In this document: positions 24,161 to 25,727 of the stretch, one piece after another | Numbering within the stretch: the stretch's first letter is position 1 | How the letters are laid out: each line of letters opens with the position of its first letter | Virus record (IMG/VR): IMGVR_UViG_3300025769_000742 | Location: 1 to 25,727 of that record | From: a virus | Reading direction: 5' to 3' (one strand) | Length of the DNA: 25,727 nt | Made by a program: the position numbers and the translations under genes | Notes under the pieces: model-generated | Told to the model about the DNA's origin: nothing | The model's input: only the letters and a program-made list of their open reading frames with translations | Database searches by the model: none

Positions 24161-24946
24161 TCATATTAATTTAAGTTGCTCAGGTTTTCTATAAACACTT
24201 TCTAATTTAGGGTGGTTAATTTCTGTAAACTCTAGGTCACAAAAGTTACCACAATCAGGCATTATTATTTTTTGTTTGCGGCCAGCATCTGGATCTAGTT
24301 CATCTAGAAATATATTTCTTATACAAGAATGACCCACTACACGTTCTGCTTCTGCCATTCTCTTAAACGAATCTGGAAAATCTTCTCGTATCTTATTCCA
24401 ATAACCCATACCACCTTTAACACAACCAATACAATTATTATTATTGTAACCTAAGTCATACATAACAGGTCTTTTTATACCCTGTTTTTCTAGAAAGAAT
24501 AAACTCTCAGGCTTAGTCATCTTATTATGTATCAAAGGGAATAGAGGTTTAGCTTCTGGATACTGTTCTTTAAATCTAATAGCTCTATTAATTTCTTTCT
24601 TACTGTACTCAAATCCAAACACCTGACCAGAATAACTTAAAGTTTTTTCTATCCTCTGTCTAACTTTTTTCTTTAGTACAAGAGTGCAGCGAGCACCTCC
24701 TGGACCATTTACATATTTATCTTTTAGTATTACATCGAATTGATCTTTGTGGTTGGGTGCTCTGTGAACTTCTATTTCTTTATCATACCAATCTTCACAC
24801 TGGGTTTTAAACCTTTCATTATCTTTATGAGCACTATCAATGGCGAAATAAATAGGAGTAACATTATCTTTACCGTACTCATCGAGAGCTAACTTAGTTG
24901 CTACTGCACTTGTAACACCTGCACTCCACCAAGATATAATTGTCAT
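24161..24946 (-). CDS. PAPS-reductase-like PP-loop protein with cysteine cluster
   Basis: The 261-aa protein starts with a strand and the loop S5-W-W-S8-A-G10-V-T-S13, a variant of the SGGxxS pyrophosphate-binding loop of PAPS reductase, DndC and tRNA-thiolation enzymes. YFAIDSAHKDNE follows as the second nucleotide-binding segment. Cysteines C87 (GGARCT), C172-x2-C175 (NNCIGCVKGG), C208, C232 and C236 could bind a 4Fe-4S cluster. These families activate or transfer sulfur or adenylate a base. In a phage, DNA or tRNA modification and sulfur metabolism are all possible, and the sequence does not decide. The stop of the 51-aa gene lies immediately before its ATG (TAAATG). Confidence 0.8.
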   Translation of the reverse strand: MTIISWWSAGVTSAVATKLALDEYGKDNVTPIYFAIDSAHKDNERFKTQCEDWYDKEIEVHRAPNHKDQFDVILKDKYVNGPGGARCTLVLKKKVRQRIEKTLSYSGQVFGFEYSKKEINRAIRFKEQYPEAKPLFPLIHNKMTKPESLFFLEKQGIKRPVMYDLGYNNNNCIGCVKGGMGYWNKIREDFPDSFKRMAEAERVVGHSCIRNIFLDELDPDAGRKQKIIMPDCGNFCDLEFTEINHPKLESVYRKPEQLKLI

Positions 24947-25102
24947 TTAATAATTCCTTTCCCAATCAGAACGACTAACAATTTTAAATTTAATTTTATT
25001 TAACTCAGGGTTTGCTACATAAGTAGCAGCCTCAGCTCTGCTGTTAGTAGTATAATAACAAACGACATTATCATTACTATCATAGAACAATATTTTATAC
25101 AT
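24947..25102 (-). CDS. Short phage protein (51 aa), first gene of the leftward operon
   Basis: The frame from ATG at 25102 to TAA at 24947-24949 ends exactly where the PP-loop gene begins. GGAG (25108-25111) lies 5 nt upstream of the ATG. The product starts M-Y-K-I-L-F-Y-D-S and has a strand/turn/strand/helix pattern (NVVCYYTT, SRAEAATYVANPE, KIKFKIVSR), consistent with a small folded domain. It is the first gene after the AT-rich control region. Function unknown. Confidence 0.72.
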   Translation of the reverse strand: MYKILFYDSNDNVVCYYTTNSRAEAATYVANPELNKIKFKIVSRSDWERNY

Positions 25103-25122
25103 TATATCTCCTACTATAAGGT

Positions 25123-25135
25123 ATACTTTAAGTAT
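25123..25135. repeat. Palindromic operator-like element, copy 1
   Basis: ATACTTTAAGTAT: two 6-bp arms ATACTT/AAGTAT around a central T. It shares a 12-bp core identical with copies 2 and 3. Confidence 0.7.
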
Positions 25136-25147
25136 TACTTTAAGTAT
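25136..25147. repeat. Palindromic operator-like element, copy 2
   Basis: TACTTTAAGTAT, directly abutting copy 1 (12 nt centre to centre, a little more than one helix turn). The outermost A of the palindrome is T here. Confidence 0.7.
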
Positions 25148-25178
25148 ATTATTATTATTTATATATATTATTAATATA

Positions 25179-25191
25179 ATACTTTAAGTAT
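25179..25191. repeat. Palindromic operator-like element, copy 3
   Basis: ATACTTTAAGTAT, identical to copy 1 and 56 nt away from it centre to centre. It covers the expected transcription start of the candidate leftward promoter. Confidence 0.7.
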
Positions 25192-25192
25192 A

Positions 25193-25222
25193 CTTATATA
25201 GGTATACATAAAGTTATATCAA
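25193..25222 (-). promoter_or_regulatory. Candidate leftward promoter
   Basis: On the minus strand TTGATA (25217-25222, 5 of 6 matches to -35) is followed by an 18-nt spacer and TATAAG (25193-25198, 5 of 6 matches to -10). Transcription would start near 25186, inside a copy of the palindromic repeat, and run to the ATG at 25102. In such AT-rich DNA chance matches are common, so the position relative to the repeats is the better argument. Confidence 0.45.
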
Positions 25223-25239
25223 TAGGGTGTGACATTATG

Positions 25240-25727
25240 TCATAGTCCTTTACGAATTATATACTTACTTATCTCATTACTATTACCTCCATAAGTTTCA
25301 TTATAGTTATCCATTTCAAATATCTCACTAAGTATTTCATCTGCTTTCCAACCATACTCATGCAGCAACTTAGCTAATTCATCAGGGTAATCTTCTATTA
25401 TGTCTGATATATGTTTAACATTAGTATCAGAAGAACTATCTGAAGTATAAGTATGTCCATAGTGATACCCATAATCCCACCAATCTGATTCGTATTCTAT
25501 CACTGTACAGTCACGTTCAAACACCAACGTAGACCAGTCTGCCGCTATAAGTTTCGCTACTAAAAGGTCAACAAAATCAAGGTCTTGTATTTCTTTAGTG
25601 CTGTGTTGTCCTCTATATCCTACTGATATATTAGTACATTCAGATACCACTCCGCAGTACTCATTGGAGTCAGTAAAACTACCACCACTATCTGCTATTA
25701 ACTGAGGTAAACCTACCGCATCTGAAA
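25240..25727 (-). CDS. Partial zinc-peptidase-like protein (N-terminus outside window)
   Basis: The frame is open to the right edge of the window, so the gene starts upstream; the first candidate start inside is only a GTG at 25650. The visible first part reads ...GLPQLIADSGGSFTDSNEY...SECTNISVGYRGQHSTKEIQDLDF. The order GSFTDS / ECTNISVGY / H..KE.Q resembles the C-terminal metal-binding part of M28/M42-type zinc aminopeptidase-like proteins found in phages, where E and H of these blocks bind zinc. The family label rests on pattern memory. After that comes a 90-residue tail rich in D, Y, S and E (SDWWDYGYHYGHTYTSD), not part of the peptidase core. Cell-wall or protein processing roles are both possible. 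Confidence 0.6.
   Translation of the reverse strand, partial: SDAVGLPQLIADSGGSFTDSNEYCGVVSECTNISVGYRGQHSTKEIQDLDFVDLLVAKLIAADWSTLVFERDCTVIEYESDWWDYGYHYGHTYTSDSSSDTNVKHISDIIEDYPDELAKLLHEYGWKADEILSEIFEMDNYNETYGGNSNEISKYIIRKGL

Follow-up and report, generated by a model that had tools for sequence, protein, structure and literature searches.

What would three exact copies of one short palindrome do in the spacer between two viral genes, and what would read them? In the 25.7-kb viral record IMGVR_UViG_3300025769_000742, the whole of which we call the window, three exact ACTTTAAGT palindromes start at 25125, 25137, and 25181 and span 25125-25189, within a 137-b spacer (25103-25239) between an incomplete M28-like peptidase gene and a 51-aa ORF. 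The original prediction had described operator-like repeats at the head of a leftward operon, and its account of the layout is borne out by our analysis: the 13-mer ATACTTTAAGTAT is exact at 25123-25135 and 25179-25191 and carries one end mismatch (T for A) at 25135-25147, two copies abut with base 25135 common to both, direct repeats of AGGTATAC bracket the copies at 25119-25126 and 25200-25207 (the second continuing into the degenerate site ACATAAAGT), and the core between the copies is purely A/T for 37 nt (25145-25181). One copy also lies on the expected transcription start, as a start 6-8 nt on from the minus-strand promoter TTGATA-18-TATAAG falls inside 25179-25191. The placement at the head of an operon was mistaken, since the preceding gene (25240 to the window end) has the same direction, and the promoter is therefore internal, between the early genes and the replication block. 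The features of the locus are as follows.

24161..24946, minus strand: PAPS-reductase-like gene (phrog_424), second gene after the array
24947..25102, minus strand: 51-aa ORF, first gene after the array
25125..25133 (13-mer 25123-25135), no strand: candidate operator O3 of the tandem pair, ACTTTAAGT, 12 b from O2
25137..25145 (13-mer 25135-25147), no strand: candidate operator O2 of the tandem pair, ACTTTAAGT, 13-mer with one end mismatch
25145..25181, no strand: A/T-only stretch of 37 nt between O1 and the O2/O3 pair, the longest A/T run of the window
25181..25189 (13-mer 25179-25191), no strand: candidate operator O1, ACTTTAAGT, covering the predicted transcription start
25193..25198, minus strand: -10 hexamer TATAAG, 18-nt spacer, ending 3 nt before O1
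25206..25214, no strand: degenerate fourth site ACATAAAGT within the -35/-10 spacer, which L007/L373, a relative, has in exact form
25217..25222, minus strand: -35 hexamer TTGATA, scored on the near-identical copies L084 and L369
25230..25242, no strand: a further conserved dyad, TGACA-N3-TGTCA, lying upstream of the -35 hexamer and across the stop codon of the M28-like gene
25240..25725, minus strand: M28-like peptidase (phrog_4191), C-terminal part only; the gene that precedes the array

A generic promoter scan, which requires T at the last position of the -10 hexamer, did not list TATAAG.

It is the clustering of the sites, not their total number, that is exceptional. The window holds five ACTTWAAGT against a shuffle mean of 1.0, and its nine matches to the 13-mer with at most two mismatches are mildly raised over the 3.7 expected, a count reached by 2 of 100 shuffles. 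Three ACTTWAAGT within 70 b occurred in none of 300 whole-window shuffles, and three sites in the 137-b spacer in none of 5,000 spacer shuffles, so that repeated symmetric sites stand at this promoter beyond chance.

Conservation of the array and its promoter geometry

We chose relatives solely by the neighboring M28-like gene, independently of the motif. Among the best 80 of 148 such viral contigs, 59 hold two or more exact ACTTWAAGT in the 260 b that follow the M28-like stop codon and 39 hold three or more there, whereas the upstream control stretches of the 80 loci (up to 1000 b each) show none. The position of the array is thus conserved in relatives; absence of the repeats from relatives and scatter of the core at chance frequency, the two outcomes named beforehand as contrary to an operator function, were both looked for and not found. 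The dyad TGACA-N3-TGTCA is exact in 30 of these 80 (again the best 80 of 148), with one copy per contig wherever present among the contigs scanned. Collapsed to 33 nonredundant regions, the 80 loci include 27 regions in which one palindrome type occurs at least twice (1% in shuffles), namely repeated ACTTNAAGT in 22, ACTTAAGT in 3, CCTTAAGG in 1, and AGTATACT in 1, and 6 regions without a repeated palindrome. The center base of the ACTTNAAGT sites counted in the promoter test on these M28-chosen loci is A in 32 and T in 27, never C or G. Pairs 12 b apart like O2-O3 also occur in L048, L052, and L053, contigs that were not chosen by motif.

Motif searches gave patterns of differing specificity. 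The exact 25-base pair of sites is found in nine viral stretches and the strict three-site pattern in 43, with 3 further stretches in the GTDB collection, namely two tandem repeats that differ in composition and an Epulopiscium single-cell contig. In that contig (L328:5086-5174), the sites lie at 0/68/80, as in G004, with no related genes nearby. The two-site pattern alone is modestly specific, with at least 119 stretches versus 116 for the backwards control. A further site lies nearby in 53 of 114 distinct two-site stretches (a set that includes those 25-base-pair loci fitting the two-site pattern) versus 6 of 99 in the backwards control, and 68 two-site stretches versus 9 in that control lie outside ORFs of 60 aa. 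Searching the phage collection by blastn with the window region as query returned chance-level pieces only; a 34-b array query gave short matches in T7-like, Campylobacter, and other phages.

The sites tend to lie at sigma70-like promoters. Among 22 nonredundant motif-chosen arrays, tested in both orientations, 16 have a sigma70 match of at least 10/12 (mean of 2.6 and largest value of 7 in 100 shuffles), and in 7 the first site lies at -4 to +6 from the -10 hexamer (shuffle mean, 0.5; largest, 3); this test replaced an earlier one of fixed orientation, which gave 7/39 motif-chosen arrays at a shuffle rate of 5%. For 26 M28-chosen arrays, a sigma70 match of at least 9/12 ends within 12 b of the first site in 12, with 0.9 expected, and in the remaining 14 the promoter near the first site is weaker, more distant, or not recognized at the threshold. 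The largest gap between neighboring sites in these 26 arrays is 25-61 b, and 43-56 b in 19 of them. Array polarity with respect to the downstream gene varies between phages.

Gene neighborhood and phage affiliation

Against the Roseobacter phages CRP-6 and CRP-13, the replication genes of the window reach 55-73% amino acid identity: the DNA polymerase is 55% identical to that of CRP-6, the primase-helicase 66% identical to that of CRP-13, and the ribonucleotide reductase gives 72-73%. Of seven structural ORFs tested, three have weak matches (22-48% amino acid identity) in CRP-9, and two of the three match CRP-13 as well; the window would be best read as part of a mosaic phage resembling CRP-6 and the HMO-2011 type. 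In seven of eight relatives examined a tyrosine integrase directly follows the array; the window and 35 kb of the near-identical G001 hold none. In relatives of the TACTTAAGTA type a tRNA-Arg (TCT) gene follows the array (L377:2572-2648, L378, L389, L392, and L404). We rejected an integrase arm or att site as the identity of the array, as G001 has the array with no integrase in 35 kb and the second array described below is not adjacent to an integrase.

A second array and joint switching of palindrome type

Seven genomes (G002, G004, G007, G008, G010, G014, and L090, the last near-identical to the window) carry two arrays each, one after the M28-like gene and before the integrase or PAPS gene, the other upstream of c5, a small gene (83 aa) at the head of the late (lysis/structural) block. 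Both arrays have the same palindrome type in 11 of the 11 contigs where both are visible, and this holds when the type changes: in G017, G018, and G020 both arrays carry TACTTAAGTA, which the rest of each contig lacks, and G022 carries ACCTTAAGGT twice at one array and three times at the other, with none elsewhere on the contig, its late array retaining one ACTTWAAGT among the new sites. That both arrays switch jointly argues for one diffusible protein reading both.

In the cultured phages HMO-2011, CRP-1, and CRP-2, the late promoter upstream of the c5 homologue is of the TTGACA type and is followed by other palindromes: CACTTAARTG in HMO-2011 (3 of the genome's 4 sites within 131 b), ACTTTAARTG in CRP-1 (all 3 sites within 99 b), and ACATTAATGT in CRP-2 (both sites within 171 b). 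CRP-603 has no ACATTAATGT, and exact ACTTNAAGT is not clustered in CRP-9, CRP-13, or CRP-6. By eye, the last 1.2 kb of CRP-9 (L355) and CRP-13 (L356) contain repeated GTTTAA-N2-TTAAAC-like palindromes in a long noncoding stretch, and TGTGATCACA-like dyads occur in CRP-13 and G010. CRP-1 and CRP-2 infect one host strain (FZCC0023), yet each has its own palindrome, confined to the homologous late promoter, which favors a protein encoded by the phage over one from the host.

Proposed mechanism and alternative explanations

From the computed sites, their conservation, their position at the promoter, the two arrays, and their joint switching of sequence, we infer that a protein binds here, and we propose that the array probably comprises the operators of one phage-encoded dimeric regulator, a repressor most likely, acting at the replication and late promoters. 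O1 would occupy the start of a host-sigma70-type promoter, with a weaker copy in the promoter spacer, and the tandem pair would lie some 45-60 b downstream of O1, past the A/T-rich stretch. Sites on the start or in the spacer of a sigma70 promoter fit repression by occlusion, and the presence of sites in both places here argues for that sign, RNA polymerase most likely being blocked at +1, while the downstream pair may add cooperative binding or a roadblock. Compact palindromes 12 b apart suggest small dimers binding side by side. The same protein would also read the second array at the late (lysis and structural) promoter, so that the replication and late blocks would be held and released together.

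Of the multisite repressor or activator that had been envisaged from the window, the operator part is upheld by the conserved position in relatives (59 of the best 80 of 148), the sigma70 position, and the joint switching, and the looping part is not supported, because 20 distances of more than 30 b between neighboring sites show no 10.5-b phasing (R of 0.08). The switch may be linked to lysogeny or to lytic timing. CRP-3, an HMO-2011-type phage, integrates at a tRNA-Met gene (PMC6918029), and lysogeny thus exists in the wider group. With no integrase in 35 kb of G001, a plain lysogeny repressor fits the lineage of the window poorly, and the switch there may serve lytic timing or be a remnant.

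The most serious competitor is an activator that binds the sites and switches on the replication and late genes in the lytic program, a reading that we regard as unlikely. It would account for common sites at two promoters of later gene blocks, for the long spacers (18-19 b) of many promoters, and for a lineage without integrase in 35 kb. Activators rarely bind on or downstream of the start, and the sites here do both; several of the promoters are, moreover, already near consensus. An origin with iterons and an unwinding element had been offered as the other option for this locus; taken as a replication origin resembling the primary origin of T7, with a promoter, an A/T unwinding stretch, and iterons, it is disfavored, its probability being low. 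The order of elements suits it: behind the promoter come the longest A/T run of the window and then direct repeats, and in the T7-like phages Kvp1 and BA14 a phage promoter is followed by three ACTTTAAG repeats at 11-12-b spacing. Against this, the longer relatives G004 and G014 show no GC-skew turn at this array (an indirect sign), their skew minima lying some 0.9 kb away from the other array, in a region of divergent transcription, and two identical, jointly switching arrays behind promoters are not expected of one origin and fit operators better. The repeats of Kvp1 and BA14 (L331 and L332, 600-645) lie between promoter phi1.05 and gene 1.05.

That a host transcription factor binds the sites appears quite improbable: in its favor, no phage regulator could be named, but phages of one host strain (CRP-1 and CRP-2) and close relatives (G022 and L182) differ in palindrome, and the strict triple is found in only three GTDB stretches, two being tandem repeats of other composition. 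Least credible of all is a role of the repeats in the RNA leader, as a translation enhancer or by RNA pairing. The last site does lie near the Shine-Dalgarno region in several phages, as does ACTTTAAG in T7-like phages, but nine-base palindromes with a one-base center cannot form hairpins, some sites lie inside the untranscribed -35/-10 spacer, and there is no Rfam match.

Search for the regulator

No regulator gene was recognized in the window, as originally stated, and this holds as far as tested, the early operon lying mostly outside the window; the search in that operon likewise yielded none, and none of the candidates suits every phage. As first early gene, G001 has c8 (L333:474-1007) and L090 the unrelated c21 (phrog_1448; L090:6106-6606), with no match between the two profiles (hhalign probability, 0.5%). 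Because c8 and c21 are swapped between near-identical phages with operators unchanged, c8 was set aside; its AlphaFold model (mean pLDDT, 78) has a best VIA Z of 4.7 on 39 residues and no PDB or BFVD match at an E value of ≤0.001. The gene c5, directly behind the late array and present in the cultured HMO-2011, CRP-1, CRP-2, CRP-207, and CRP-603, is well conserved across operator types, and its model is poor (pLDDT, 58), the fold not being predictable.

An HTH family, c15/cl165, occurs in the early operons of all three operator types and was rejected, having no HMM match in G001, L090, and G002; by eye, phages that have an identical operator differ in its putative recognition helix. A family of early proteins carrying one or two HTH-like repeats, situated upstream of c7/c3 (L094:4636-5004, L182:1595-2098, and L449:5753-6178), is replaced between closely related phages. 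All eight array groups have both c3 and the M28-like gene, and neither occurs in CRP-6, CRP-9, or CRP-13. As regulators both were dismissed, since they are 93-96% identical between G022 and ACTTWAAGT relatives despite the operator switch; no DNA-binding family was found for c3.

Comparison with known systems

Temperate phages of the lambda type have several symmetric operators per promoter, two promoters, and one repressor protein, and operator sets with diverging specificity are known among lambdoid phages. The likeness here lies in several symmetric sites per promoter, two promoters per phage, and operator sequences that differ between relatives. In contrast to lambda operators, the sites are much shorter (9-11 b), no repressor gene was found, and the arrays stand not around a repressor gene but at the promoters of the replication and late blocks. 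T7-like origins offer a promoter followed by A/T-rich DNA, with the closely spaced ACTTTAAG repeats of Kvp1 and BA14, whereas the promoter here is sigma70-like, the sites are full palindromes at two loci, and no skew turn marks the array.

The immunity of Cluster A mycobacteriophages (L5 and Bxb1, with their stoperators) is a further comparison (PMC6550527; see also PMC9283540). Diverging operator specificity is already known there: cognate site sets have a consensus that differs between related phages, as here, and repressors prefer their own sites (PMC6550527). Cluster A sites are asymmetric, genome-wide (as many as 30), and mostly off promoters, whereas we find few symmetric sites confined to two promoter regions, an arrangement unlike that of stoperators.

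Within the HMO-2011-type and CRP-6-like group, an integrase upstream of the replication genes is a common feature (PMC9038755, PMC8528129, and PMC6918029), and HMO-2011, CRP-1, and CRP-2 have a homologous c5 gene with palindromes of their own at its promoter. The words promoter and repressor have no occurrence in the main texts of these three papers; the literature searched gave no description of these sites in marine phages and no text combining HMO-2011-type, integrase, and promoter.

We tentatively raise the possibility, which we hold to be somewhat doubtful, of an undescribed two-promoter switch, in which a regulator of an unrecognized family would read 9-11-b palindromes at the replication and late promoters and lineages would change ACTTWAAGT, TACTTAAGTA, ACCTTAAGGT, and other types jointly, thereby defining immunity or switch groups, the switch being kept even without an integrase. 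If so, operator type could be read from metagenomic contigs alone for uncultured marine viruses, and would predict which marine phages have a common switch and, among temperate ones, which exclude each other. For a marine group in whose descriptions (PMC9038755, PMC8528129, and PMC6918029) transcription control is not treated, the switch would fill that gap, with joint switching as a comparative route to the regulator gene. Set beside the diverging operator sets already known, what differs here is the compact palindrome, its confinement to two promoters (replication and late), the joint switching of both arrays, and the marine phage group in which they occur.
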